DNA of 34,821 nt from Acidithiobacillus sp. Its GTDB lineage: Bacteria > Pseudomonadota > Gammaproteobacteria > Acidithiobacillales > Acidithiobacillaceae. The notes beneath the pieces were generated by a model. It was not told the origin of the DNA, did not search any database, and was given only the letters and a program-made list of their open reading frames with translations. Positions within the stretch are counted from its first letter, which is position 1. Every line of letters starts with the position of its first letter. This document shows positions 1 through 16,249 of the stretch, piece by piece. The DNA lies in assembly GCF_027322205.1 (NCBI RefSeq), contig NZ_DAHVHY010000017.1, forward strand, positions 1 through 34,821. The letters run 5' to 3'. A program made the position numbers and the translations under genes.

Positions 1-333
1 GGTAAATTCTTTATGGATGCGCGTGCTGCTCTACCGGAAACACCGGTATTGCTGGGTTGCGCGCGTCCGTCCGGCGTGCATCGCTCCATCACCGACACCT
101 ATGCGGTCATGGCGGGACTGAACGGCGTGGCCTTCCCCTCTGATGGCATGCTGGCGCTTGCCAAACATTTGGAACGGGATGTTTTTGTGACACCTTCCTG
201 CTGCTCCATGATTGTTGGTGAAGAAGTCCTGGCACTCGGTGATGAGACGACTACCATGCCCTTGGATTATGTTCCCGTCGCGCCGAAGCGTCGTACACAA
301 CTGCGGGATATCCCGATTGTATTTACGGCTTGA
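1..333 (+). CDS. lipS1: LipS1-type radical SAM lipoyl synthase component (C-terminal part, cut by window edge)
   Basis: Only the last 110 residues are present; the frame is open from base 1 and ends at TGA 331-333. The visible part reads as the C-terminal region of a biotin-synthase-like radical SAM protein: a GCARP turn, a GVAFPSDG segment and a SCCSM double-cysteine motif near residue 67. A paired cysteine here fits LipS1, which with LipS2 inserts the two sulfurs into protein-bound octanoyl groups. The assignment rests mainly on the next three genes (sLpl(AB), lipT-like, lipS2), the set known from sHdr-type sulfur-oxidiser loci. The radical SAM CxxxCxxC motif lies outside the window. Another biotin-synthase-like protein is possible but less likely in this context. 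Confidence 0.75.
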   Translation, partial: GKFFMDARAALPETPVLLGCARPSGVHRSITDTYAVMAGLNGVAFPSDGMLALAKHLERDVFVTPSCCSMIVGEEVLALGDETTTMPLDYVPVAPKRRTQLRDIPIVFTA

Positions 334-369
334 GACGACAGTGCTTTCTCTGGGCTTGATGTTTTCCCG

Positions 370-1452
370 GTGGCTCGCGTTATGACAGCACACGCCTCTG
401 ATGACTGGCTTGTGGTTGATACTGGTCTGCGCCCTGCCGACGAAAATATGGCTTTAGACAAAGCGTTGCTCCTGGCGATGTTGGAAAGCCGGACTCCCAA
501 CATTTTTCGTTTCCTGCGTTTTGAAGAATCCGCGCTGGTCGGTTATCACCAATCACCAGAGCAGGAACTCAACCTGGAGTTTTGCCGTGAACAGGGGATC
601 GCCGTGCAGCGTCGTCTCACCGGCGGCGGCGCACTGATTTTTGATCCCACCCAGATAGGCTGGGAGTTGGTGTGTCGGCGGGACGCACTGCCCCAGGGTG
701 ATATGGCGTCACTGGCACGGAAGATCTGTGAAGCGGCAGCGGCCGGCTTGTCACTTTTGGGGGTGCGCGCGCAGTTTCGTCCGCGCAATGACATTGAAGT
801 GGAAGGGCGAAAGATTTCCGGCACCGGAGGGATTATGGATGGAGACGTGTTGCTGTTTCAGGGCACGGTGCTCGTCGATCTGGATATCCCGCGCATGCTG
901 CGCGTACTGCGCGTGCCATTGGAGAAACTGGACGCCCATGCAGTTTCTTCGGTGGCGGAACGGGTGACCAGCTTGAAAGCCCTGTTGGGTAAGGCGCCGG
1001 AGTTGATGGCAGTGCAGAAAGCCTTGCTGGATGGTTTCCGCGCGCAGTTGGGGCTGTCTTTCGTCGAAGGGGACGTGCCGGATACCATAACCGCGCTATT
1101 GCCGGAGGCATTGGCGGGAGTGCGTGATGCGGAGTGGCTCGGTATCAACCGCCGCGCGCGTGACGCTATGCCGTTGCGTAAAGCGACGTTGCGCGCCCCC
1201 GGTGGCACGCTGCAAGCGGAAATGCTCTGGGATAGCTATGGGAACCGAGTGCGGCAAGTCCGCTTTAGCGGTGACTATTTTATCCAGCCGCGGCGCGCTA
1301 TCGTCGATCTGGAGGCGGCGCTGCGTAATGTCCATCTGAATGACGTGGATGGCATCATTGCGGGATTGTTCGAGAAGCAGGCTGTCGATGGCTTCGGCTT
1401 ACAGCCGGAGCATTTCGCGACGGTATTGCGGATGGCGGCAAAAGACGCGTGA
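370..1452 (+). CDS. sHdr-associated lipoate:protein ligase sLpl(AB)
   Basis: This 360-residue protein has the BPL/LplA catalytic fold: RRLTGGG at residues 81-87, a FDP turn just after it, and the GRKISGTGG loop with the catalytic-type Lys at about 148. The C-terminal third (about 240-345) looks like the LplB accessory domain, so A and B parts are fused, as in sLpl(AB). The enzyme activates lipoate or octanoate with ATP and transfers it to lysine of lipoate-binding proteins of the sulfur-oxidising heterodisulfide reductase system. Two starts are possible: GTG 370 or the in-frame ATG 382; neither has a strong Shine-Dalgarno site. The 3' end overlaps the next gene by 4 bases (GTGA), so they are translationally coupled. 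Substrate specificity is inferred from family and context. Confidence 0.85.
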   Translation: MARVMTAHASDDWLVVDTGLRPADENMALDKALLLAMLESRTPNIFRFLRFEESALVGYHQSPEQELNLEFCREQGIAVQRRLTGGGALIFDPTQIGWELVCRRDALPQGDMASLARKICEAAAAGLSLLGVRAQFRPRNDIEVEGRKISGTGGIMDGDVLLFQGTVLVDLDIPRMLRVLRVPLEKLDAHAVSSVAERVTSLKALLGKAPELMAVQKALLDGFRAQLGLSFVEGDVPDTITALLPEALAGVRDAEWLGINRRARDAMPLRKATLRAPGGTLQAEMLWDSYGNRVRQVRFSGDYFIQPRRAIVDLEAALRNVHLNDVDGIIAGLFEKQAVDGFGLQPEHFATVLRMAAKDA

Positions 1453-2510
1453 ATCCTTTGGCCATAGATGTACTGGTGATTGGTGTTGGTCCGGCCGGCG
1501 CGGCGGCAGCGCGTGCCGCTGCGGGCAAAGGCCTTACGGTGATCTGCGTTGATCGCCGTGCGGAGGTCGGTGTCCCGGTGCAATGCGCCGAGTTTGTCCC
1601 CATGCCGCTCCTGCGTACCGTGCATGAAACGGATTCGCGGGTGCAGGACATAGAAGGGATGTTGACGGTACTGCCGTCCGGGCTACAGCATCACAGCGTC
1701 TTCCCCGGCATGATGATTGACCGGGCACGTTTTGATCAGGGCCTGGTAAAACTGGCGCAGGCGGCGGGCGCGCAGGTGGAAATGCGTTGCCAATTCCTCG
1801 CCTGGGATGGCGCAGTGGCCCGCTTGCGGCGCGGTACAGATGAAGAGTTCACGGTGCGTCCCCGCTTGCTGGTTGGCGCCGATGGGCCGCACAGCCTGGT
1901 GGCGGAGGCGGTGGGCTTGCCGCATCAACAGGTCGTTTATACCCGTCAATATACGGTGCCGCTGCTGCGCCCCTATGCGGATACGGATATTTTCCTCTCG
2001 GATGCCTTTCCTGGCGGCTATGGCTGGTTGTTCCCCCGCGGGCCGGTGGCTAATCTCGGACTGGGGGCGGATCGGCGTTTTGAGGACAATCTTAAATTGC
2101 CGCTGGAGCAGTTGCATCGGCAGATGGTGGAGCGCGGCATCGTCGGCGAATCAGTCCTCGGGCGTACCGGCGGCGCGATCCCCGTAGGCGGTATTCGGCC
2201 CATGGTGCATGGCAACGTGGTGCTTGCCGGAGATGCGGCCGGGCTGACCCACCCCATTACCGGGGCGGGCATCCCCGCGGCGGTAATCAGTGGTGAGGGC
2301 GGAGGATCGGCAGCCGCTGATTACCTGGCGGGTGATGAGGACGCATTAGAGAGCTACGCAGAAGATATGCAGGATCAGTTTGGTCCGGCCCTGGCGCGGG
2401 CTGTGCAGCGTAGAAAATCTTTGGAGGCCGTCTGGCGTCAGCCTGCGGCCCGGGAAGACAGGGTGATGCGATCCGGTTGGATTGCCTTTGATGAATACTT
2501 TGCCGCTTAA
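1449..2510 (+). CDS. lipT: FAD-dependent oxidoreductase of the geranylgeranyl-reductase family (LipT-like)
   Basis: The 353-residue protein starts with a classic Rossmann FAD-binding motif, GVGPAGAAAA near residues 12-21, followed by an acidic/basic strand end (VDRR). A second flavin motif, AGDAAGLTHPITGAGI, lies near residues 257-272. This is the geranylgeranyl reductase / digeranylgeranylglycerophospholipid reductase family, but the gene sits between sLpl(AB) and lipS2 with GTGA overlap upstream. That position matches LipT, the flavoprotein proposed to supply electrons to the LipS1/LipS2 radical SAM enzymes. A role in lipid or chlorophyll-type reduction is therefore unlikely here. Start GTG 1449 is set by the overlap with the preceding stop. 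The electron-donor role is family knowledge, not visible in the sequence. Confidence 0.78.
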   Translation: MNPLAIDVLVIGVGPAGAAAARAAAGKGLTVICVDRRAEVGVPVQCAEFVPMPLLRTVHETDSRVQDIEGMLTVLPSGLQHHSVFPGMMIDRARFDQGLVKLAQAAGAQVEMRCQFLAWDGAVARLRRGTDEEFTVRPRLLVGADGPHSLVAEAVGLPHQQVVYTRQYTVPLLRPYADTDIFLSDAFPGGYGWLFPRGPVANLGLGADRRFEDNLKLPLEQLHRQMVERGIVGESVLGRTGGAIPVGGIRPMVHGNVVLAGDAAGLTHPITGAGIPAAVISGEGGGSAAADYLAGDEDALESYAEDMQDQFGPALARAVQRRKSLEAVWRQPAAREDRVMRSGWIAFDEYFAA

Positions 2511-2534
2511 GGCGGAATGACAGGAGGAACTTCC

Positions 2535-3671
2535 ATGAGTGCGGTAGCGCAAGAAAATTCTCAGACCTTGAACTTTTATCGCCCGGATTATTTCGTCAAA
2601 ACGCCGACGATGCGGTCGCCGGAATATGTGCAGTTAAGCACCGCGGCGGCGATTACGTTGGGTCTGGTGCCCGGGGTGATGCACCGTACCTCCTGTACCA
2701 ATTGCCTGAACCTGTTGATGACTTATCCGGAAGGTTGTCGTGCCAACTGCACCTACTGTGGTCTGGCCCGGCATCGTGAAGAGAGTCGTGATTATGCGGA
2801 TCGCAACTTCATCCGGGTGGACTGGCCGACGGTGCGCGTGGATGAAATGCTCGAACGTATCGCCCAGAACAGTGACAAGGGCCAGTTCCAGCGCATGTGC
2901 ATCAGTATGATCACCCATCCCGATTCTGACCATGATACGCAAGTCATGCTGAAGCGCTGGATGGAAGTGGCGCCCCATATTCCCGTCTCCATTCTTTCCA
3001 ACCCGACCACCATGGAGAAGCAGGATCTCATCGACCTCAAGGCGATGGGTGCCGACATTTTTACCGTCGCACTGGACGCTGTAACCCCGGAAATCTTTGA
3101 GCGCACCCGTGGCAAGACCGTGCAAAGCCCTCATTCCTGGGATAAGTACTGGCAGACCATCGAATGGGCGGCGGAAATTTACGGACCGGAGAAATTCGGC
3201 GCGCACCTGATCTGCGGCATGGGCGAGACGGAACAGGAAATCCTCGCCGTCTGTCAGCAGATGAAGGACATGGGTGGGCATAACCACATGTTCGCCTTCT
3301 TCCCCGAGAAGGGTTCCATGATGGAGGATTGGGATGCCGTGCCGCAGGATCACTGGCGCCGGGTGCAGTTGGGCCGCTTCCTGATCGATTATGCCGGTGG
3401 CCGTTACGAAGATATGGGCTTTGACGCCCATGGCCGGGTCGAAGACTTCGGATACCCGCAGGCCGAGTTGGAAGACATTATCAATTCCGGCAAGCCCTTC
3501 CAGACCTCCGGTTGCCCTGGGAAGGATGATGAAGAAGTCAGCGCCTGTAACCGGCCTTATGGGGATTCCTCGCCTTCGGACATTCGCTCCTTTCCTTTCG
3601 TGCTGAACAAGGAAGATGTGGAGATCGTGCGGCGCCAGATGCGCTTGCAGGATTTGCAGTTTTTGGGCTAG
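2535..3671 (+). CDS. lipS2: LipS2-type radical SAM lipoyl synthase component
   Basis: The radical SAM signature CRANCTYC (CxxxCxxC) is present near residue 72, preceded by another pair, TSCTNC. A C-terminal group (SGCPGKDDEE...ACNRP) is consistent with an auxiliary cluster or sulfur-donor site. The protein has 378 residues from ATG 2535. This start is preferred over ATG 2517 because a perfect AGGAGG lies at 2522-2527, 7 bases upstream. LipS2 works with LipS1 to insert sulfur into protein-bound octanoyl chains, a replacement for LipA. It is the last gene of the lip group; a strong terminator follows at 3720-3739. The biotin-synthase label often given to such proteins does not fit the neighbourhood. 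Confidence 0.85.
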   Translation: MSAVAQENSQTLNFYRPDYFVKTPTMRSPEYVQLSTAAAITLGLVPGVMHRTSCTNCLNLLMTYPEGCRANCTYCGLARHREESRDYADRNFIRVDWPTVRVDEMLERIAQNSDKGQFQRMCISMITHPDSDHDTQVMLKRWMEVAPHIPVSILSNPTTMEKQDLIDLKAMGADIFTVALDAVTPEIFERTRGKTVQSPHSWDKYWQTIEWAAEIYGPEKFGAHLICGMGETEQEILAVCQQMKDMGGHNHMFAFFPEKGSMMEDWDAVPQDHWRRVQLGRFLIDYAGGRYEDMGFDAHGRVEDFGYPQAELEDIINSGKPFQTSGCPGKDDEEVSACNRPYGDSSPSDIRSFPFVLNKEDVEIVRRQMRLQDLQFLG

Positions 3672-3719
3672 CGTTAAAATTTCGCGCTGAATGGGGGCGC
3701 ATCATGTAATGTGCATATA

Positions 3720-3739
3720 GGGGCTTCGGCCCCTTTTTT
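3720..3739 (+). terminator. Rho-independent terminator of the lip operon
   Basis: A 5-bp GC stem GGGGC/GCCCC closes a stable TTCG tetraloop and is followed by six T. It lies 48 bases after the lipS2 stop and separates the GC-rich lip operon from the AT-rich region before the FadL-type gene. Confidence 0.9.
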
Positions 3740-3918: not shown

Positions 3919-5253
3919 ATGAAAAAATCACGGATTTTAGGAATTGCGGTTGGCGCGACGTTGGCGATGGGCCTGTCGGCCAGTGCATTTGCAACAGATG
4001 GTTATCAGTTGATTGGTATTGGGCAGTATGCCATGGGCATGGCGGGTGCCGTTGTTGCGGCTCCCGATGATCCTCTGTCTGCGGCCATGAGCAACCCGGC
4101 CGGGTTGGCGTTGTTGACTCCGCAGGCGGCGTTCTCGGCGGAGATTTTTAATCCAACCCGTAAAACTAATTTTGGTTCCGGCGAGATTGGTAGTCACAGT
4201 AATGTCTACGGTGTGCCGGCCATTGGTTGGGTGGCACCGGCATTTGGTGACGGTATCGTTTTTGGTGGTGGTGTTTATGGTACCTCTGGCCTGGGGGTGA
4301 ATTATGTTCAGCCTAACGTAAATGGTCCTGCATTCGATATGCGTGCCACTCCACCCGCACAGGGGTTTGCACCGGGTACGATCAATGCGTATAGCAGCAT
4401 TACATTTATGCAAATGGCCCCTTCTCTTGCGATGAAAGTGAATAGCCATTTGGCAGTGGGCGCGTCTTTGAATATTGCTGCGGAGCAGGGGTCTTTTCTT
4501 CAGTCGTTTACGCCAAATAACAATGCCTTTTTTGCAAGGCAGTCGAACGCGTATTATGTTGGCGGAGGTTTGAACCTGGCTTCGCCATCATGGGCCTATG
4601 GTGTAGGTGTGACTTTGGGTGCTCTGTACAAGGTGAACGATATGGTGACGCTGGGTGCTACTTACAAGTCACCTGTAATATTCACGCCAATGACATGGCA
4701 AGAATCTGGCGAGGTTGGTCCCGGAAATGTGCAAGGGGGAGCTGGACAATATAGTGGGCATTTGAATTACCCACAGCAGATTGCTTTGGGCTTGGCCATC
4801 CGGCCTATTCCTCAGTGGTTAATTAGCGTGGAAGGGCAGTGGATAAACTGGCACGCTACCATGAATAACTTTACCATCTACGGACCTTGGAATGGGCAGT
4901 CGAGTGTTGCCTTACCTATGCATTGGAGTAACCAGTGGGTAGCTAATATTGGTACTCAATATGATCTTACCAACTGGCTACAGGTGCGGGCAGGTTATAC
5001 CTATGGTACTAATCCGATCAGTAGTGGCAATATAGCGAATAACCTGATTTTCCCAGCGGTGGTAACGAATGCAGTTACGTTTGGTGCTACGCAGAAGCTG
5101 GGTATGGGATGGAAGCTCACGGAGGCGTATATGCATGCTTTTGCTAATACAGTCAACGGACCTGTCGGCTCCTCACCCTTCTTTGGGGCAGCCCCGGCCA
5201 GCGCCACCCTCGCCGAAAATTCCTACGGCCTTCAGGTCGGTTACGACTTCTAA
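3919..5253 (+). CDS. FadL/TodX (OmpP1) family outer-membrane channel
   Basis: The 444-residue protein has a clear signal peptide (basic MKKSR start, hydrophobic core, cleavage after about residue 25, ASAFA). The mature protein begins with a family-typical hatch region: a DGYQLIGIGQYAMGMAGA-like Gly-rich stretch and DDPLSAAMSNPAGLALL. The rest is alternating beta-barrel sequence that ends in aromatic YDF. FadL/TodX channels carry hydrophobic compounds across the outer membrane; the substrate here is unknown. In a sulfur oxidiser, a link to hydrophobic sulfur compounds is speculation. Codon and base use are AT-richer than in the flanking genes. The gene is monocistronic, between two terminators. 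Confidence 0.85.
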   Translation: MKKSRILGIAVGATLAMGLSASAFATDGYQLIGIGQYAMGMAGAVVAAPDDPLSAAMSNPAGLALLTPQAAFSAEIFNPTRKTNFGSGEIGSHSNVYGVPAIGWVAPAFGDGIVFGGGVYGTSGLGVNYVQPNVNGPAFDMRATPPAQGFAPGTINAYSSITFMQMAPSLAMKVNSHLAVGASLNIAAEQGSFLQSFTPNNNAFFARQSNAYYVGGGLNLASPSWAYGVGVTLGALYKVNDMVTLGATYKSPVIFTPMTWQESGEVGPGNVQGGAGQYSGHLNYPQQIALGLAIRPIPQWLISVEGQWINWHATMNNFTIYGPWNGQSSVALPMHWSNQWVANIGTQYDLTNWLQVRAGYTYGTNPISSGNIANNLIFPAVVTNAVTFGATQKLGMGWKLTEAYMHAFANTVNGPVGSSPFFGAAPASATLAENSYGLQVGYDF

Positions 5254-5369: not shown

Positions 5370-5780
5370 ATGAAGTCGATACCGATTACCGATGTGAGCA
5401 GCCTGAAAAATGAGCTGAAAAAGTACAAGATGGGGAAGAAGCTGGAGATTCCCCGGTTCAATCAACTGGCGCGCATGGCTTACATGGGGCGACTGGTGAT
5501 GACGCCGCTGGACCCGGAAGACTCCTCTTGCAAGTCTTTTTTGGTGCATATTCAGGAGCCGCAAGGACTGGCGGCGCATTTCATCGAGCTGGACGAGGAC
5601 CTGCAGGATACCATTCTGATCCTCGACAGTGAGCAGTCCATGGCCATGGCAGGGATCATGCAGGCGGGCGTGGAAGAGCGGATGCGCTGGCACCAGGCCC
5701 TCAATGAGCGCGACTTTTATTTTTCGGCTTTTTATCGGCCGAAGGATAAAGAGACGCAAGCGGAGACCACGGAGAGCTGA
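5370..5780 (+). CDS. conserved-looking protein of unknown function
   Basis: This 136-residue soluble protein has no signal peptide or membrane segment and I do not recognise a family. The N-terminus is Lys-rich (KNELKKYKMGKK), followed by mixed alpha/beta sequence and an acidic, Met-rich helix around the EQSMAMAGIM segment. ATG 5370 is preferred over TTG 5355 because AGGGA at 5360-5364 is a usable ribosome binding site 5 bases upstream. It is 42 bases ahead of a divergent lipoate-ligase-like gene and probably shares its transcript, so a helper role in lipoate transfer is possible but unproven. Confidence 0.7.
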   Translation: MKSIPITDVSSLKNELKKYKMGKKLEIPRFNQLARMAYMGRLVMTPLDPEDSSCKSFLVHIQEPQGLAAHFIELDEDLQDTILILDSEQSMAMAGIMQAGVEERMRWHQALNERDFYFSAFYRPKDKETQAETTES

Positions 5781-5822
5781 TGAGCGCGGGTTGATCGCTT
5801 CGGTCGGTTGCATTTGCAGGTG

Positions 5823-6830
5823 ATGCGAATCCGCTTGATCCATCTGGGGACTCTGGCTCCGGAGGCGCTGCACCGCGCCTATGTCGGCTTGGCGGAGGCG
5901 CAGGGTGAGCAGGATGTGCCCATTCTGCTGTTGGCGCAGTCTGGCGCCCATCTGAGTCTGGGAGCCGCGCAGGGGCTGGCTGCGGAGCTGGATCGATCGG
6001 CTTGCGAGCGGCTGAGGATTCCGGTGGTGCAACGAGCCTTGGGTGGTGGTCTGGTCTGGGTAGATCCTGGTCAACTGAATTATTTCTTTATCTTTCCCGC
6101 TGCTGCAGGAATATGTCGCGCGCCTGAGTTGTTCGCTCTGATTGCCCCTTGGGTGATTGCTGTGCATGCGTATTTCGGCCTGAAAGTGGAGCCAAGGGAA
6201 GGGCATGATTTCTGGTATCAAGGGCGCAAGATCGGCGGTACCGGGGCCGCGACCATCAGGCACAGTCTGGTGCTGGGCGGCAGCTTCATCCTGGAGGCGC
6301 AGTGGGCGTCCTTTGTGGACTGCGTGGCAGCGCCTTCGGCGGGTTTTCGCACATGGCTGTTAGAGGCGTTGCAGGAAGGGCTGTGTAGCTGGTCGCAGTT
6401 GCTGGACAGGGTAGTGGAGCCAGGTGTGGTGCTGGCAGCCTGTCCGATGTTGCTGCAGGCTGCAGGCTATGACCTGACCCTCCCGACAGAGCCTACGGAG
6501 GCAGAACGGTATGCGATGGGTCAGGCGGAGCTGGACGACATGGACTGGGATCAGCCGCTCCGTCGTCGGGTGCGCGCCGGTATCAAACTCAAAGCGGGAG
6601 CTTTTCTGACGGAGCGGCACTGGCCGGAGGGCGACTGGTTGCGGGTGTGGACGGAGAATGGTGCCTTTCGGCGTGTCGCGGGTTCGGCCTGGTCGGTGGG
6701 GCAGGGGACCCGGTTAATAGGTCTGCAGCCTGATTCTGTTCAGCTTGGTGAACAGTTGCGAGAAATTGTCGGCAAAGAGGCTTCGCTCTGGGGTGAACGA
6801 CTGTTAGAAACGGCGGTCTGGGCGGATTGA
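5823..6830 (+). CDS. second, divergent lipoate-protein-ligase-fold (BPL/LPL) protein
   Basis: The 335-residue protein carries recognisable LplA-like elements: QRALGGGLVWVDPG near residues 70-83, where ligases have RRxSGGG, and GRKIGGTGA with the Lys at about 136. The first Arg of the RR pair is replaced by Gln, and the region after GGG differs from sLpl(AB). The C-terminal part (about 190-335) is long and not obviously LplB. It could be a lipoate or octanoate ligase, or an amidotransferase moving lipoyl groups between carriers. Starts are uncertain: TTG 5808, GTG 5820 and ATG 5823 are in frame and none has a clear ribosome binding site; ATG was chosen. It lies 2 kb after the lip operon and between two unknown genes. 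Confidence 0.75.
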   Translation: MRIRLIHLGTLAPEALHRAYVGLAEAQGEQDVPILLLAQSGAHLSLGAAQGLAAELDRSACERLRIPVVQRALGGGLVWVDPGQLNYFFIFPAAAGICRAPELFALIAPWVIAVHAYFGLKVEPREGHDFWYQGRKIGGTGAATIRHSLVLGGSFILEAQWASFVDCVAAPSAGFRTWLLEALQEGLCSWSQLLDRVVEPGVVLAACPMLLQAAGYDLTLPTEPTEAERYAMGQAELDDMDWDQPLRRRVRAGIKLKAGAFLTERHWPEGDWLRVWTENGAFRRVAGSAWSVGQGTRLIGLQPDSVQLGEQLREIVGKEASLWGERLLETAVWAD

Positions 6831-6888
6831 GCCCGTCGGTGCTGGCGGCTTGTTCCCAATCAATAGCAATGTAATTGGAGGTGGCCTG

Positions 6889-7266
6889 GTGCCCAGTATC
6901 AGCGATCGGATGCGCAAGCGTTTTATTCTCATGGCGAGTGATCCGGAACTACGCACGGCGGTTGTGATGACGACGCCCGAAGGCTGGGAGATGACGGCGG
7001 CGACGGACTTGGACGACCTCGGCGATTGGCAGGAAGTCCTGCTGCATCGTTTTATGCTGCTCAATCTGGATGATCCGGAGATTGAGGATCCTATTGAGCT
7101 GATTGACACCTTGCGGCGGGAATTTCAGTTGAATATTGCGATATTTTGTCTGGGCGGGAGCCAGGAGCGGCGGGATGCAGCGCGTTCGGCACGAGCGGAT
7201 CGTTTTTTTGACCGGGATGCAGGTTTGCTGCGTTTGCCGGAATTTTTTGCCCAGTTTGGCTGGTAG
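6889..7266 (+). CDS. small protein of unknown function
   Basis: This 125-residue acidic soluble protein has no recognised family, signal or membrane segment. The sequence suggests an alpha/beta fold: an N-terminal helix (SDRMRKRFILMAS), a strand pair around AVVMTTPEGWEMTAA, an acidic stretch DDLGDWQ and a C-terminal RxDRFFDRD segment. GTG 6889 is chosen because GGAGGT at 6877-6882 lies 6 bases upstream; the upstream ATG 6850 has no such site. It follows the second lipoate-ligase-like gene by 58 bases, so the two are likely co-transcribed. A partner role is inference only. Confidence 0.65.
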   Translation: MPSISDRMRKRFILMASDPELRTAVVMTTPEGWEMTAATDLDDLGDWQEVLLHRFMLLNLDDPEIEDPIELIDTLRREFQLNIAIFCLGGSQERRDAARSARADRFFDRDAGLLRLPEFFAQFGW

Positions 7267-7323
7267 ATGCCGGAGTACCGCTCATCGGCCGGAGAGCTGA
7301 TGAGCGCGGTCAGCTACGCAGTG

Positions 7324-7647
7324 TCAGCCGACTTTGGCGTGGGCCTCGGTGTCCAGCAGCAGATTGTGGCTTTCGCTCTGGCCGTCGGCGCTGACGGTGA
7401 GAGTGGCGATACGGATGCCGGCGTCCTTGAAGGTGATTTCGTAGGAGAAAATGCCGGGCAATTCGAGGCTGGCTTCTTTCAGGGTCTTGCCTTCGCAGGC
7501 GACGCTGATCTTGGCGCTGCCTTTGCCTTCCAGCATGGCCTGAATCCGGAAAGGATGGCCGGCGACACGGCGATAGACTTGCGGGTCGCGGTTGGCGTTG
7601 TATTGCAGGTTGTTGAGTTTGATCATTTTGATCAGATTCGTGCTCAT
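7324..7647 (-). CDS. small beta-rich protein of unknown function
   Basis: The 107-residue product has no signal peptide. After residue 40 the pattern is alternating hydrophobic beta strands (SAKISVACEG, GIFSYEITFKD, IRIATLTVSADG) of the kind seen in Ig-like or E-set domains; the SoxZ-like fold was considered, but no family motif is visible. Start ATG 7647 has AAGGGG about 7 bases upstream on the minus strand. It is transcribed divergently from the CbbQ/CbbO-type operon and converges with the plus-strand unknown gene ending at 7266. No function can be stated. Confidence 0.65.
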   Translation of the reverse strand: MSTNLIKMIKLNNLQYNANRDPQVYRRVAGHPFRIQAMLEGKGSAKISVACEGKTLKEASLELPGIFSYEITFKDAGIRIATLTVSADGQSESHNLLLDTEAHAKVG

Positions 7648-7773
7648 GATAGCCCCTTCTTAATCGCACTATAAAATGAATTGTACACGCATTCAGCTAA
7701 AACGCTCTTATCCTAGACGAAAATCGCCCGGAGTGATAGCGGGGCGCGACCGTGAAGCCCATCAGGAGTGATG
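7648..7773. promoter_or_regulatory. divergent intergenic region, promoters expected on both strands
   Basis: The minus-strand gene at 7647 and the plus-strand operon at 7774 diverge from these 126 bases. A TATAGT-like -10 lies on the minus strand at about 7669-7674, and AGGAG at 7764-7768 is the ribosome binding site for ATG 7774. No convincing -35 was found for either direction. Confidence 0.4.
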
Positions 7774-8178
7774 ATGACCGAGTCAAACGAGTTAATTGGT
7801 GCATTAGATGCAGCGCAGGAGCGTATAGAAGTGCTGGCGCGGCAGCAGGTTGACGGGATGGCGTTGCCGGAACTGGTGGCGGCAGGTGTGGAAGAAGCGG
7901 CAGCCATGGTGCGTATCATGCTGGTTGCAGAGCACAAGCCCTATGTCAGTGATGCGGATTTGCTGGAGTTGTGGAAAACGCTGGTGAAGGGTTCACCCCA
8001 CTGGAATACCCTTCGCGACAATTGCCGTGAACTGGTTTACTACCAGAACTGTCTGAATGCAGAGCGTGCTGATGCACTGCCCGCAGAGCCGGAGCGCATG
8101 GTGATTCATACCCTGCGCCATATCTATCTATACCTGCGTAGTCATGTCGAGCAAAATCATGGGGACAAATATGAGTGA
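7774..8178 (+). CDS. helical protein of unknown function, first gene of the CbbQ/CbbO-type operon
   Basis: The 134-residue protein is predicted mostly alpha-helical and soluble; I recognise no family. Features are an amphipathic N-terminal helix ([20 protein letters not shown]), an acidic Ala-rich helix and a Tyr/His-rich C-terminus ([18 protein letters not shown]). ATG 7774 is chosen over GTG 7768 and ATG 7771 because AGGAG (7764-7768) is 5 bases away. It overlaps the CbbQ-like gene by 8 bases, so it is almost certainly co-translated with it. It may be a substrate adaptor or target subunit for the AAA+/VWA pair, which is inference from position. Confidence 0.75.
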
Positions 8179-9001
8179 GACGAAAATGGCAGAGAGCAAC
8201 GGCTTGCGTTTGCCCTTCGAGGAGCCGTTTTATCAGCCGGTGGCGAATGAGGTAAGGGTGTTCATGGCGGCCTGGGATCGGCGTCTGCCGGTCATGCTCA
8301 AGGGGCCGACAGGTTGCGGCAAAACCCGCTTTCTGGAGCACATGGCGTGGCGCTTGAAGCGGCCGCTGGTGACCGTCGCCTGCCACGAAGACCTCACCAG
8401 TTCAGACCTGGTCGGGCGCTTTCTGATCGAGGGCGACGAAACGGTCTGGCAGGACGGCCCGTTGACCAAAGCGGTGCGGGAGGGGGCAATCTGCTATCTG
8501 GATGAGATTGTTGAAGCGCGTACCGATACGACGGTCGTCATCCATCCGCTGACCGATCATCGCCGTCATCTGCCCATTGAGAAGCTCGGCGTGGAGATTA
8601 TTGCGCACCCCGATTTTATGCTGGTGATTTCCTACAATCCGGGCTACCAGACGGTGCTGAAGGATCTCAAGCCTTCGACCAAGCAGCGTTTTGTGGGGAT
8701 GAATTTCAACTATCCGCCCGCCGATGTGGAAACCCGGATTGTGATGAAAGAGGCGGGCATGGATGAGAGCCGGGCCAGGGCGCTGGTGGCGGCGGCGGGT
8801 AAGGCGCGGAACCTCAAGGATCAGGGATTGCAGGAAGTGACCTCTACCCGCGCCCTGATCTATGCGGGTGCGCTGATGGTGGCGGGTCTGGACGCGCTGG
8901 AGGCCTGTACCGTGGCGATCATCCATCCGCAGACGGATGATCCGGAGTTGGCTGAGGCGCTGCTGGAGATTTTTCGGACCTTTTTCCCGGAGCAGGGCTA
9001 A
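8171..9001 (+). CDS. CbbQ/NorQ-type MoxR AAA+ ATPase
   Basis: The 276-residue protein has all AAA+ elements: Walker A GPTGCGKT at 45-52, Walker B ICYLDEI at 107-113, sensor-1-like SYNPGY and a sensor-2/arginine region (STKQRF). Length and motifs fit CbbQ/NorQ. CbbQ forms hexamers that work with CbbO to remodel inhibited Rubisco; NorQ acts with NorD on nitric oxide reductase. ATG 8171 is preferred over ATG 8144 because GGGGAC lies just upstream. No cbbL, cbbS, cbbM or norCB is in the window, so the client is unknown. The cbbO-like partner follows after 9 bases. Confidence 0.88.
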
Positions 9002-9010
9002 GGAGCGCCC

Positions 9011-11506
9011 ATGTCGGCGGCGATGGAGGATATCCTCGACCATCTGGCGGCCGTCAGTTTTGTGGCGGGGCGGGATGCGCGAGCGGCTTTGCCAGCGGTC
9101 ACTCCGTTGGGGGAGGCGGGAACCTTACGTTATTTGGAGACTGGACGGGATTTGTTTTTCTATGACCGGGAAGCAGGCAAAGCGTTTTTCCATGCCACCT
9201 CCGATCTGATAATGACCTTTGAGGGTCTGGATCCCTGGCTGGATCAGGCACGGGTGTTTCTCAGCCAACGCGGCACCTTCCGGGCGGCGGTGGGCTTCTT
9301 CGAGCAGGCCAGTGCGGTACGCCGGGGTTGGGGCGCAGAGGGGGAAGCGTTGTGGTTTGCCTTGGGTGCGGCCTGGATCGACCGGCATGTGGACAGTGCG
9401 GCATCCTATTTCCGGGTACCTGCAGCGATTCTGTTTGGTGATGCAGGAGTTGAGGGGCTGCGGGCGCTGCTGACACCGGCTGAAGTTCTCGCCAAGGGGC
9501 GTCTGGGGCTGGGGACGTATCTGGACGGTGCCATCAAGGTGCGCGGCATCTGCGGCCTGGAGGGCGTGGCGGAATGGACGCGGCGTGGCGGCGATGTGCT
9601 GGCGGCGGGCAGGGTGCGTGGTGAGGCCTGGTTCCGACTGGAGAGTGATGAGGCGCGCAGCTTTTTGCTGGAGGTTTTGCCCGGCTTTCGTATGGGAACC
9701 CACAAGCGGCTTTTCGGACTCCTGCTTCAGGCCTGGACCGGGCTGCATCTGCCCTTGGAAGAGGGGGACTGGAGCCTGGAGGGTGGGCGCAGTTTTGTCG
9801 AGACCGACGGGCGCAGTCTCTTTGTGCCGGCGGTGATGCCCGACCGGGAAGAGGCTTTGCTGGCCTTCTACCATACCGGTGCGCATCTGGTCTTTGACAG
9901 CTATGAGCAAGATGCCATCCATACCCTTTTTGCCGAGATCGGTGTGCAGCATCCGCCTCTGGATCCCGACCAGCGGATCACCTGGCGGCCGCTGTTCGCC
10001 CAGTTTGGCGACGATATGATTCGTTTTCAGCTGATTTTTGATCTCTGTGAAGATCTGCGTGTGGATAGCGCGCTGGAGCGGGAGATGCCCGGTTATCTGG
10101 CGCGGGTGCTGCGGGCATCCCGTCAGCGCAGGCGGCCGGAAGGGGTTGCCGGGCACTATTATCAGGCGGCTGTGAATATGCTGGAAGATGGCATGGCCGG
10201 AAGATTGCCCGGGGATCTTGCCATGTTGATGACGGCACAAACCGGCATTGTTGACGCCTTCCGGGCAGCGCTCACTCTCTATGCAACGACGGATTTGCCG
10301 CCGATCTCCTTGTCTGAGCGCGCCCGCGCCTATCTGCCCGGCCATTCGCCCAATGCGGCACGACCGGTGTATCCGCGGCAGAAGCGCGGTACGGATGTTC
10401 CGGAGATGGATGGCGGCGGTGAACTGGGTGCTGCCGGCCATGAGGAAAAACCGCGAGAGGCCCCGCAACAGGCCGAAGGCAATGATCCGGATATGGATAT
10501 TCCTCCTGAGGATATTCAGGGGACCGGCGGGCGGGTCGGGGTCGGTATTCCCATGCCCGCCAAGGTCATGGGCAGTGGTCGCGGGGTACAAGGGCCTAAA
10601 GGTGGCTGGCCTTATCGCGAATGGGACTACCGTCAGCAGAGCTATAAAGAGGGCTGGGCGCGGGTGCATGAGCGTCCGCTGCGCGAACACGATGAGGCCA
10701 AGGCTATTGCCATTGCTGCCGAATATGACGGCACGTTAAGGCGTTTGAAGCGGGCCTTGCAGGCACAGAAGCCGACGCGGATGGCGCCGCGCCGTCGCCA
10801 GTACGAGGGTGACGAGCCCGATTTGGAGGCCGCAGTGCAGTTTGTGGTGGAGCGGCGCGCGGGACATTCGCCTAAAGCCGGTATCTACCTGCAACGGCGA
10901 CCGCAACAGCGAGATACTTCGGTACTGCTGCTCGCCGATCTGTCTACCTCCATTATGGCGGAGGCCGGAGATTCCGGCGTGCGGGTGGTGGATCGCTTGC
11001 GTTCGGCAATGCTGCTCTTTGGTGAGGCACTGGTGGAAGTAGGCGATCCTTTTGCCCTTTACGGATTCGCCAGCAAGTATCACGACGAGGTGTTGCTTTA
11101 CCCCATCAAGCGATTCACCGACAAATTTGATGCGCGGGCGCGGGCCTTGCTCGGCGGCCTGTCCGGGCGGCTGGCGACGCGCATGGGCGCCGCCATTCGT
11201 CATAGCTCGCGACTGATGCTGCGGAGTCCGGCGCAGCGGCGTTTGCTGTTGATCCTGTCGGACGGTCGTCCGGCAGATTATGACGATGCCGGTGATTCCC
11301 GCTATCTGCAGGAAGATACGCGCATGGCGGTGAAGGAGGCGCAGGACTTGGGTATCCACGCCTTTTGCATCAGTCTCGACCCGTGCGGCGGTGAATATCT
11401 GCCGCTGGTTTTTGGCCCCGGACATTATCTCGTGCTGCCCCATCTCGATAGCCTGCCGACGCGCCTGCCCGAGATTTACCTGCGCCTGCGCGGTCACAGC
11501 GCATGA
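9011..11506 (+). CDS. CbbO/NorD-type VWA-domain protein
   Basis: The 831-residue protein ends in a von Willebrand factor A domain: a MIDAS motif DLSTS at about 643-647 and a downstream LSDGRPADYDD strand-loop. The long N-terminal part (to about 450) is helical and includes an acidic FDSYEQDAIHTLFAEIG segment and an FDLCEDLRVD segment typical of CbbO/NorD adaptors. A Pro/Glu/Gly-rich, probably disordered linker occupies about 460-540. In CbbQO, the VWA domain binds the client and the ATPase hexamer. GGAG precedes ATG 9011 by 5 bases. The size is closer to CbbO than to the smaller NorD. No Rubisco gene is nearby. Confidence 0.88.
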   Translation: MSAAMEDILDHLAAVSFVAGRDARAALPAVTPLGEAGTLRYLETGRDLFFYDREAGKAFFHATSDLIMTFEGLDPWLDQARVFLSQRGTFRAAVGFFEQASAVRRGWGAEGEALWFALGAAWIDRHVDSAASYFRVPAAILFGDAGVEGLRALLTPAEVLAKGRLGLGTYLDGAIKVRGICGLEGVAEWTRRGGDVLAAGRVRGEAWFRLESDEARSFLLEVLPGFRMGTHKRLFGLLLQAWTGLHLPLEEGDWSLEGGRSFVETDGRSLFVPAVMPDREEALLAFYHTGAHLVFDSYEQDAIHTLFAEIGVQHPPLDPDQRITWRPLFAQFGDDMIRFQLIFDLCEDLRVDSALEREMPGYLARVLRASRQRRRPEGVAGHYYQAAVNMLEDGMAGRLPGDLAMLMTAQTGIVDAFRAALTLYATTDLPPISLSERARAYLPGHSPNAARPVYPRQKRGTDVPEMDGGGELGAAGHEEKPREAPQQAEGNDPDMDIPPEDIQGTGGRVGVGIPMPAKVMGSGRGVQGPKGGWPYREWDYRQQSYKEGWARVHERPLREHDEAKAIAIAAEYDGTLRRLKRALQAQKPTRMAPRRRQYEGDEPDLEAAVQFVVERRAGHSPKAGIYLQRRPQQRDTSVLLLADLSTSIMAEAGDSGVRVVDRLRSAMLLFGEALVEVGDPFALYGFASKYHDEVLLYPIKRFTDKFDARARALLGGLSGRLATRMGAAIRHSSRLMLRSPAQRRLLLILSDGRPADYDDAGDSRYLQEDTRMAVKEAQDLGIHAFCISLDPCGGEYLPLVFGPGHYLVLPHLDSLPTRLPEIYLRLRGHSA

Positions 11507-12717
11507 CGGGCGAGGTACAGGTGGTCGTTGGCAGAATGAGTGAGCGGGAGATGCTGCGTCAGCAGATTACCGCGACCCGTCCCGCGATTTTTGTCGGGGC
11601 GGCGCGTTACCGGCGGGCGAGTTATGGGAGTAACCATCCCCTGGCGATTCCGCGGGTGTCCCTGACCCTGGACCTCATCAATAGCTACGGGGCCATGGCG
11701 CCGGAAGAATACCGGCAGGGCCGCCCGGCCAGCCATCGGGAGCTCTTTGGCTTTCATACCAAAGATTACATACAGGCCTTTGAGCGCGCCCAGTTTCGCG
11801 GTGGTGTGCAGGACGGCGATCGCCAGCGTTATCAGCTGGGGACGTTGGAGAATCCCTATTTCCCCGGTTTTTTCGACACCCCCTCCCTAGCTACCGGTTC
11901 CAGCGTGCTCGCGGCGGAAGCCGTGCTGGAAGGCGCAACTGCCTTCAGCCCCGCAGGCGGAATGCACCATGCTGCACCGGGTCAGGCCCGTGGCTTCTGC
12001 TACCTCAACGATCCGGTGCTCGCCATTCAGCGCCTGCGCCGCGCCGGGTTGCGGGTGTTGTACTGGGACATGGATGCCCACCACGGTGATGGGGTGGAGG
12101 CGGCCTTTGTGGAGGACCCGGACACGCTGACGGTCTCCCTGCACATGGATACGGACTACGCTTACCCCTCTCAGGGCGGGAAGCTCAGCGATTGGCCGGG
12201 CTTGGCGGTTAATCTGCCTTTGCCCAAAGAAGTGAATGACAGTGAGTATGCTCTGGCTTTTGCGGTGTTGTGGCCTCGCGTTTTGCAGCACTTCGATCCA
12301 GATGTCGTCGTTTTGCAGGCGGGCACCGATATCCTCGCCCCCGACCCCTTGAGCAAGTTCCGGATCTCCAACGGCCTGTTCTGGCAGGTCGTACGCCAGA
12401 TTGTCGCGGAAAGTCCGCGTCTGCTGGTGCTGGGCGGGGGTGGTTATCATCCCGTTGCCCTGGCGCGCTGCTGGACGGGGCTTTGGGCTATTTTGAGCGG
12501 ACGTTCGTTACCCGCGGAATTGCCTGCGGCCGGGCGGGTGCTGCTCAAGGCCGTCGAATGGGAGCTGGACGATGAGGATGTGCCGGACTATGGTCAGCAG
12601 TTCCTGTCGCTGGAAGATGCACCCCGATCCGGCCCGGTGCGCGCCGATCTGCATGAGCGCTTGGATTTTTTGCTGCAACATCACCCTCTCTTTGTCAACA
12701 GGAGTAACGCTGCGTGA
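11503..12717 (+). CDS. histone-deacetylase/AcuC-family metal-dependent amidohydrolase
   Basis: The 404-residue protein has the full HDAC-fold active site. Metal ligands are Asp191 and His193 in DMDAHHGDG and Asp276 in QAGTDIL. The charge-relay His pair is in GGMHHA (155-156), and the catalytic Tyr315 is in LGGGGY. Bacterial members deacetylate acetylated lysines (AcuC on acetyl-CoA synthetase), polyamines or other amides; the substrate here is not evident. Start ATG 11503 overlaps the CbbO-like stop (ATGA), so expression is coupled to the AAA+/VWA pair. The 3' end overlaps the next gene by 4 bases. The N-terminal 30 residues are an unaligned extension, and a later start is possible. Confidence 0.88.
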   Translation: MTGEVQVVVGRMSEREMLRQQITATRPAIFVGAARYRRASYGSNHPLAIPRVSLTLDLINSYGAMAPEEYRQGRPASHRELFGFHTKDYIQAFERAQFRGGVQDGDRQRYQLGTLENPYFPGFFDTPSLATGSSVLAAEAVLEGATAFSPAGGMHHAAPGQARGFCYLNDPVLAIQRLRRAGLRVLYWDMDAHHGDGVEAAFVEDPDTLTVSLHMDTDYAYPSQGGKLSDWPGLAVNLPLPKEVNDSEYALAFAVLWPRVLQHFDPDVVVLQAGTDILAPDPLSKFRISNGLFWQVVRQIVAESPRLLVLGGGGYHPVALARCWTGLWAILSGRSLPAELPAAGRVLLKAVEWELDDEDVPDYGQQFLSLEDAPRSGPVRADLHERLDFLLQHHPLFVNRSNAA

Positions 12718-13859
12718 ATGCTGCGGAAAACGGACTGATTCCCGGAGCCGCCAACAGTGCCGGTACCAAGACCTATGTGGCACGCTTCGCCGAGACCCTC
12801 GCGGACGAACACTTCAGTGACTTTTTAAATACCCGCATCAAGCTGTCTTCGCTGGGGGTCGGCACCTTCCCCGGCGGCGTGGACGATGTGACGGATGTCG
12901 CGGTGGCGGCCATTGTGGCGCAGGCCTTGCAATCGGGTATCAATGTCGTCGACACTGGTGCCAACTATCGTTTCGGACGGGCCGGACGGGCGGTAGGGGT
13001 GGGTATTGCCAAGGCCATGGCGGCAGGCATTCGGCGTGAGGAATTCTTTGTCGTCGGCAAGGGCGGCTTTTTGACCTTTGCCAACGGCCGCCCCAGGGAA
13101 CCGCTGGCCTTTTTCCGTGAAGAAGTGGTGGCCAAGGGGTTGGGCAAGGAAGATGACCTCGCCCAGGGCGTCCATTGCCTGAGCCCCGAGTATATCGCCT
13201 GGCAACTGGATGCCCTGCGCGAGCAGACGGGTTTAGAGACGTTGGATGTCTTCCTGATTGATCAGCCGGAAGTGCATATCCCGGTGATTGGCAAGGAACG
13301 CATGTATCAGAAACTGATCGACGTGTTCACCATGCTCGAAGCCGCGGTGCAGGCCAACAAAATTCGCTGCTATGGCATTTCCACCTTTAATGCCTGCCGG
13401 GTAGAGACCGATAATACGCTGTTCCAGTCGCTGACCAGCCTGATCGGATTGGCTGAGAAGGCCGCAGGGCAAGGCAATCGCCACCATCTGCGGGTGGTGC
13501 AACTTCCCTTCAATGCGCTGATGCCGGAGGCCTACACCCGTTTCAGCCAGGTGACCGGGCAGGGCAATATCGGCTCGACCATTCAGGCGGCTTTTCAGCT
13601 CAAGCTGACCATTATGGCGAGTCACCCCCTGGGCAAAGGACTGCTGGCGCGGGAAGAAGTGCCTTCTCTACAGGAAGGGATGCCGGAGCTGGCTGATGCC
13701 GCGCAGCGCGCCATCCAGTTTGTGCGCTCGACGCCGGGTATCGGGGTGACGCTGGTGGGACTTAGCTCGCCCCTGCATCTCGCCGATTTTCTGGCGGTAG
13801 CCAGACAGCTTCCACTCCCCAAAGGGCGCTATCTGGCCATGTTTGAGAAGGAGGAATAG
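12714..13859 (+). CDS. aldo/keto-reductase-fold protein with altered catalytic site
   Basis: The 381-residue TIM-barrel protein follows the aldo/keto reductase pattern: LGVGTFPGG start, the Asp80/Tyr85 pair (VDTGANYRFG) and Lys116 (VVGKGG). The position that is normally the catalytic His in the LIH strand reads LID (Asp183), so one of the four classic residues is changed. A long insertion (about 120-165) separates the Lys strand from this one. GVTLVGLSSP near the end matches the NADPH-binding C-terminal region. Start GTG 12714 overlaps the upstream stop. It ends the operon that begins at 7774. The substrate is unknown; a role in the same modification system as the HDAC-like enzyme is possible. 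Confidence 0.78.
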   Translation: MNAAENGLIPGAANSAGTKTYVARFAETLADEHFSDFLNTRIKLSSLGVGTFPGGVDDVTDVAVAAIVAQALQSGINVVDTGANYRFGRAGRAVGVGIAKAMAAGIRREEFFVVGKGGFLTFANGRPREPLAFFREEVVAKGLGKEDDLAQGVHCLSPEYIAWQLDALREQTGLETLDVFLIDQPEVHIPVIGKERMYQKLIDVFTMLEAAVQANKIRCYGISTFNACRVETDNTLFQSLTSLIGLAEKAAGQGNRHHLRVVQLPFNALMPEAYTRFSQVTGQGNIGSTIQAAFQLKLTIMASHPLGKGLLAREEVPSLQEGMPELADAAQRAIQFVRSTPGIGVTLVGLSSPLHLADFLAVARQLPLPKGRYLAMFEKEE

Positions 13860-15496: not shown

Positions 15497-16249
15497 ATGA
15501 AGCATTTTGCCGTCGTGCAGCACAGTTACTCCGAGTTTCTGGGCATCGTGGAGAGTCAACTGGAGAAGCGCGACATCGGTTTCAGTTACTTCCGGGTTTT
15601 TCTCAGTAACGAGCTGCCGGGCAATGCGCTGACTTTTGATGCCTTATTTTTGCTGGGTGGGCCTATGTCTCCCCTGGAGTCGGACAAATATGCCTGGCTG
15701 ACCCAGGAACTCAATACCATCGCTATTTTCCGCAAGGCGAAGCGGCCGGTGGTGGGCTTTGGCTTGGGGGCGTTATTGCTGGCGCAGTATGAAGGGGCCG
15801 AATTGCACCTGGAACCTTATCATAATGCCTACTTCACTACCGCCCACGCCACCGAGGCAGGCCGCAACGACCCGCTGGCGCAGGCAGTGGATGGTGCTCA
15901 GGTGATGGTCTGGTCACCGGGCACCGCCACCCTGCCGGAGGGTGTCGAGCCGTTGGTGACGGATGACGATGGTCGCTGGATCGCCTTCCGCCCGGAGGAA
16001 GGTGTGGTGGGACTGCTGTTCCGGCCGGAAATGAAGCCGGGACTGATTGAAGATATTCTTATGGAAGAAGATCGCGAAACGCCAGAGAATATCGGCGAAC
16101 TCCTGGGGCGGGCGCGGACGCTGTGGCCGGAGATGCAGAAAACTACGGACCGGGTCATCATTGCCTTGGTCCGCGAGTTATCCCTCATGACCGAGAAACG
16201 CAAACCACGGGTATTCTCCCTCAAAGTCGATACCGGGGATGATGTATGA
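15497..16249 (+). CDS. class I glutamine-amidotransferase-fold protein lacking catalytic Cys and His
   Basis: The 250-residue protein has the class I amidotransferase layout of GuaA-like proteins: FLLGGPMSP, then the nucleophile elbow, then a C-terminal RPE motif. The elbow reads GFGLG where active enzymes have G-x-C-x-G, and the final motif reads FRPE instead of FHPE. Both the nucleophile Cys and the catalytic His are therefore missing, while the Glu remains. It is probably a regulatory or binding protein, not a hydrolase. GAGGGGG precedes ATG 15497. It is co-transcribed with the LysR gene upstream and overlaps the next gene by ATGA. Confidence 0.8.
   Translation: MKHFAVVQHSYSEFLGIVESQLEKRDIGFSYFRVFLSNELPGNALTFDALFLLGGPMSPLESDKYAWLTQELNTIAIFRKAKRPVVGFGLGALLLAQYEGAELHLEPYHNAYFTTAHATEAGRNDPLAQAVDGAQVMVWSPGTATLPEGVEPLVTDDDGRWIAFRPEEGVVGLLFRPEMKPGLIEDILMEEDRETPENIGELLGRARTLWPEMQKTTDRVIIALVRELSLMTEKRKPRVFSLKVDTGDDV

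Follow-up and report, generated by a model that had tools for sequence, protein, structure and literature searches.

The first 3,671 nucleotides of the 34,821-nucleotide stretch of Acidithiobacillus DNA analysed here (hereafter ‘the window’) very probably constitute the lipoate-assembly part of the locus for the sulfur-oxidising heterodisulfide-reductase-like (sHdr) system of an Acidithiobacillus, an assignment that takes in the mechanism proposed for the encoded enzymes. The four genes concerned, lipS1-slpl(AB)-lipT-lipS2, are a further member of a published operon type (Cao et al. 2018, PMC6067878; Tanabe et al. 2023, PMC10332631). Downstream lie two gene families, here designated hypA5355 and hyp6850, that we put forward as candidate sHdr partners.

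In relatives, sLpl(AB) loads LbpA with octanoate or lipoate, LipS2 and then LipS1 insert sulfur at C8 and C6, and LipT is the likely electron donor (PMC10332631). By analogy, we infer that LbpA is the substrate of the lip enzymes in this organism as well: sLpl(AB) would place octanoate or lipoate on the lysine of the ESGKW motif of GcvH-like LbpA proteins, LipS2 followed by LipS1 would insert sulfur at C8 and C6 by radical-SAM chemistry, LipT would probably supply the electrons, and holo-LbpA would then serve the sHdr complex. Ligase specificity, the order of sulfur insertion, and essentiality are taken from published work on relatives; from the present analysis come gene identity and order, Fe-S motifs, the linkage to hdr and lbpA in relatives, the hdrC1, tusA, dsrE2, and rhd genes of the organism's own genome, and its separate BioB and LipA.

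The lip operon

The genome is that of a 2.28-Mb, 90% complete Acidithiobacillus assembly, and base 1 of the window is base 1 of its contig C59. ORFs and family searches bear out the gene set named by the initial annotation: the four genes are collinear, all on the plus strand (Table 1). Two radical SAM enzymes had been claimed; LipS2 carries the expected motif (CRANCTYC), but lipS1 is cut by the contig start and its CxxxCxxC motif falls outside the window. The 110 C-terminal residues that remain score 32 bits against the LipS1 model, and the close relative L007, identical over those residues, carries CKLQCDHC in its LipS1. Across 18 homologues, the three motif cysteines of LipS2 are invariant, as are C60, C63, C128, C333, and C344.

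Table 1. Features of the window discussed in the text, with coordinates, strand, and supporting evidence.
Feature	Position	Strand	Evidence
lipS1, last 110 codons	1..333	+	NCBIfam LipS1 profile positions 207-268; 100% identical to L007 LipS1 C-terminus
slpl(AB), lipoate:protein ligase uniting catalytic A and LplB domains	370..1452	+	PF21948, 157 bits
lipT, FAD oxidoreductase, geranylgeranyl-reductase superfamily	1449..2510	+	TIGR02032, 176.5 bits (cut-off 158.8); PF01494
lipS2, radical SAM lipoyl synthase half	2517..3671	+	NF053743 LipS2, 200 bits versus 34.5 for bioB
Terminator-like hairpin and T-run after lipS2	3719..3734	+	Terminator scan
lipY-like FadL/OmpP1 outer-membrane transporter gene	3919..5253	+	PF03349, 81 bits
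hypA5355, uncharacterised family	5370..5780	+	No Pfam/NCBIfam match; co-occurs with sHdr
lpl2, divergent second LplA-like cofactor transferase	5823..6830	+	PF21948, 83 bits; GRKIGGTG and RxLGGG motifs
hyp6850, CheY-like (pseudo-)receiver protein	6889..7266	+	No Pfam/NCBIfam match; AF2 pLDDT 91.7
Small uncharacterised ORF	7324..7647	-	Similar ORF or its mirror recurs here in relatives (clusters c8/c15); no family match
Uncharacterised ORF	7768..8178	+	Recurs before AAA+ gene or in same interval (cluster c16); no family match
MoxR AAA+ gene with CbbQ_C domain	8144-9001	+	PF07728, PF08406
CbbO/NorD-like VWA gene	9011-11506	+	NorD chain 9qhd, E 3e-39
HDAC-like deacylase gene	11503-12717	+	PF00850, 226 bits; PDB HDLP, E 1e-85
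Aldo/keto reductase gene	12714-13859	+	PF00248, 66 bits
Class-I glutamine amidotransferase, candidate lipX	15497..16249	+	PF00117; NCBIfam glutamine amidotransferase, 85 bits; also in L072

The ligase is a fusion of an LplA catalytic domain with LplB: residues 288-356 match the LplB model (37 bits), and the C-terminus resembles the small LplA subunit (PDB chain 3r07_C). Two GTGA or short junctions had been described. A GTGA overlap joins slpl(AB) to lipT (1449-1452), a 6-nt gap separates lipT from lipS2, and the gap between lipS1 and slpl(AB) measures 36 nt. The start of lipS2 is likely the ATG at 2535, preceded by AGGAGG, rather than the start at 2517. The hairpin that follows lipS2 is suggestive of a terminator of the lip operon; the scan as a whole returned no more terminators than were found in shuffled sequences.

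Almost all of some 65 relatives keep the order of the four genes, including those whose LipS2 identity has fallen to 68-76%, and the order is therefore not due to chance. These relatives span Acidithiobacillus to Sulfuriferula, Burkholderiales, and Acidiferrobacteraceae.

The upstream hdr-lbpA region and the probable assembly gap

The initial annotation expected hdr and lbpA genes just upstream of base 1. Such genes do precede lipS1 in the closest relatives and in a complete Acidithiobacillus genome, but the corresponding region of the window's own genome is unassembled. In the complete genome (L021) and in the near relative L007, the series (hdrC1-hdrB1-)hdrA-hyp-hdrC2-hdrB2-lbpA-dsrE-lbpA directly precedes lipS1, and ESGKW, the lipoyl-lysine motif, is conserved in the LbpA proteins encoded there in L007. 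When the L007 upstream stretch is compared with the window's genome, matches are confined to its initial 127 bases and to the portion belonging to lipS1; the corresponding 5.8 kb are absent, and neither sHdrB2 nor hdrA nor the clustered lbpA genes are found in the assembly.

The missing 5.8 kb most plausibly reflect a gap in the assembly rather than a loss. Contig C44 of the same genome ends in rhd-tusA-dsrE2-hdrC1 followed by the first bases of hdrB1; molybdopterin oxidoreductase genes of the soeABC type and moaA, named from ORF sequences and the published order, also lie at this end. Absence of sHdr from the genome was considered, as a search for CCG-domain HdrB proteins yielded nothing beyond a GlcF-like protein and one large, unrelated ORF, and was rejected on the evidence of C44 and hdrB1. 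Three related genomes contain a second, inverted hdrB1 copy at a distance of tens of kilobases; in that of L021, the two copies are 98% identical and ~37 kb apart, and in G001 they occupy C1:518514-519845 and 556449-558162. The window's genome (G000) retains traces of hdrB1 at C44:37266-37680, the start of the second copy at C44:1-44, and a 3′ end at C16:1-151. Many Acidithiobacillus contigs start at the same spot near the hdrB1 end, which fits an hdrB1 repeat, and the near-identical second copy is plausibly the cause of the break.

The first GcvH match in the window's genome is the ordinary protein of a gcvTHP cluster. An orphan LbpA-like gene (L002:1459-1905, on contig C33 of G000) encodes an ESGKW motif and is 40-42% identical to sHdr LbpAs and 31% identical to GcvH; it adjoins hemerythrin-like and CRP/FNR-like ORFs (neighbours named by eye).

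The downstream module

Published lip clusters include lipY, a putative fatty-acid transporter, and lipX, a putative glutamine amidotransferase (PMC10332631); Table 1 lists a counterpart of the former and a candidate for the latter. Between them lie hypA5355, lpl2, and hyp6850, lpl2 usually sitting between the other two. For hypA5355, a fold search of the PDB with an AF2 model (pLDDT 84.9) returned nothing at E<=0.001. The top PDB fold matches of hyp6850 are receiver domains (3lte, 8phx, and others; TM ~0.7). Its Cys87 is invariant, and the phospho-Asp position is D in 17 of 23 sequences and N in the other 6; with this phospho-acceptor not conserved, the protein, whose CheY-like receiver fold is predicted at high confidence, is not classed as a response regulator. 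The plus-strand ORF at 7267-7674 was set aside as a probable mirror image of the ORF on the opposite strand (7324-7647).

The lpl2 product shares with LplA/LplJ lipoate:protein ligases the PF21948 catalytic domain and the RxLGGG motif, but differs from them in falling below all NCBIfam cut-offs and in having no LplB-domain match. In a tree among the fetched loci, in which branches are long, the lpl2 clade stands apart from sLpl with support of 100/100. Where a GxKI/LxG motif was found, its lysine is present in 25/28 sequences and replaced by arginine in three. All three (L021, L023, and L024) belong to one Acidithiobacillus branch, and the substitution suggests that ligase activity may be lost there.

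The link of these families to sHdr comes from their distribution among 369 genomes of the class. LipS2 was found in 27/369, sHdrB2 in 21/369, hypA5355 in 21/369, and hyp6850 in the identical 21. Nineteen of the 21 sHdrB2-positive genomes have hypA5355, and only two genomes have hypA5355 without sHdrB2, namely the window's own (owing to the assembly gap) and one that is 75% complete. With those two left out, LipS2-positive genomes have hypA5355 in 18/20 cases with sHdrB2 and in 0/5 without it (Fisher 4e-4, a test that ignores phylogeny; within the class sample, the module is spread over 12 families). A second sample, of genomes chosen by lipS2 and with sHdr judged from the locus only, agrees: hypA5355 is present in 17/18 genomes with hdrB2 in the locus (one of the 17 matches, in L061, covers just 26 residues at the edge of a contig) and in 0/6 of those whose upstream sequence extends over 10 kb without any hdr. 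The module lies ~195 kb from lipS2 in G022 and ~750 kb from it in G361; the co-occurrence is therefore not accounted for by linkage alone. That the module follows lipoate synthesis as such was rejected: LipS2-positive, sHdrB2-negative genomes are without the module, and G109 has sHdrB2 and the module, yet no LipS2 match.

The AAA+/VWA pair, the HDAC-like gene, and the aldo/keto reductase (AKR) gene (8144-13859) recur with the module even where the module is far from lipS2. One could read the whole module (5370-13859) as a carbon-fixation accessory set, that is, a CbbQ/CbbO rubisco activase region tracking chemoautotrophy and not sHdr. We consider this unlikely, although it retains some weight: the MoxR AAA+ gene with CbbQ_C and the CbbO/NorD-like VWA gene both fit, and sHdr bacteria are often autotrophs. 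However, some genomes (L120, L128) have hypA5355 and hyp6850 but lack the AAA+/VWA pair, both families are absent from the other 348 genomes of the class sample, presumably including autotrophs without sHdr, and the annotated parts revealed no RuBisCO gene.

We retain hypA5355 and hyp6850 as candidate, undescribed sHdr partners. The chances are about even for a broader proposal, in which hypA5355, usually lpl2, and hyp6850—often with the MoxR AAA+/VWA pair, the HDAC-like deacylase, and the AKR—would be undescribed partners of sHdr and LbpA. They might, for example, sense or repair LbpA lipoylation or control its quality (with a second transferase and an HDAC-type deacylase), or do the same for the sHdr complex; the receiver-like protein with its invariant cysteine would be a possible sulfane-sulfur or redox sensor. 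An sHdr-linked downstream module was not found in the open-access literature searched, which is no proof of its being undescribed.

Dedicated versus general lipoate and biotin synthesis

Several points count against a role of the lip operon in the sHdr system. In the window lipS1 is incomplete, the assembly lacks hdrA, hdrB2, and the clustered lbpA genes, and the LipS scores stay below the curated cut-offs. The genome also has LipA and the orphan LbpA-like gene, so that labour may be divided in more than one way, and sHdrB2 is absent from 5/25 LipS2-positive genomes of the class sample with an informative sHdrB2 result; the lip gene set alone is therefore no proof of an sHdr role. Together with the gcvTHP cluster, those five genomes also favour a general lipoate route, serving additionally or mainly GcvH and 2-oxoacid dehydrogenases, with the adjacency to sHdr incidental. 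We regard such a route as very improbable, since the genome has a canonical LipA elsewhere (424 bits), the lip genes are tightly and conservedly linked to hdr-lbpA, and published sLpl(AB) ligases fail to recognise lipoyl domains of organisms without sHdr (PMC10332631).

As the initial annotation held, the LipS proteins are not true biotin synthases. LipS2 scores far below the BioB cut-off of 225 bits, and the full LipS1 of L007 scores 197 bits against the LipS1 model without any BioB match. A genuine BioB (393 bits), like LipA, is encoded elsewhere in the window's genome, and LipS2 is therefore neither. That these are ordinary biotin-synthase-like and lipoate-scavenging genes without any link to sHdr can be dismissed for practical purposes: LipS2 is weakly BioB-like (34 bits), but a separate true BioB exists, the family models matched best are those of LipS1 and LipS2, hdrC1, tusA, dsrE2, and rhd are present in the genome, and hdr-lbpA lies upstream in relatives.

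The routine names predicted to hide the pathway apply in part: LipT does pass the cut-off of the NCBIfam geranylgeranyl-reductase family, but neither LipS protein reaches that of BioB. Both also miss their own curated NCBIfam cut-offs, LipS1 (NF053742; full protein of L007) with 197 of 230 and LipS2 (NF053743) with 200 of 270, so that automatic naming would miss both. A PDB sequence search with LipS2 returned nothing at E<=0.01.

Relation to known systems and significance

All four genes occur in this order in Thioalkalivibrio K90mix, where, as here, a FadL-type lipY follows (Tanabe et al. 2023, PMC10332631). With the pathway described there, the present locus shares the fused A-B ligase, the LipS1, LipS2, and LipT families, and, in relatives, the sHdr-lbpA linkage. 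It differs in that lipS1 is cut by the contig edge and in that it is followed by another LplA-like gene, a pair of uncharacterised families, and AAA+/VWA, HDAC-like, and AKR genes, for which no description was found. The Group I hdr-lbpA clusters that Cao et al. (2018, PMC6067878) described in Proteobacteria, and the Hdr-like cluster of Acidithiobacillus (PMC6335251), unite hdrC1B1A-hyp-C2B2, lbpA copies, and maturation genes, as seen here in relatives, with soeABC-rhd-tusA-dsrE before hdrC1; distinct from these are the inverted second hdrB1 copy in the three related genomes searched and the extra LbpA-like gene away from the cluster. In Thermococcus kodakarensis, where LipS1/LipS2 accompany Lpl-N/Lpl-C, two radical SAM enzymes also share the lipoyl synthase reaction, but the archaeal ligase is bipartite, whereas the present locus encodes an A-B fusion together with LipT.

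The curated cut-offs for the names LipS1 and LipS2 miss proteobacterial enzymes of this kind. The operon confirms a dedicated maturation route for the lipoate proteins of sHdr in Acidithiobacillus, a genus of key importance in bioleaching and in acid mine drainage. If the downstream module is real, the sHdr system would gain at least two further near-constant protein partners, a prediction that is testable by gene deletion.
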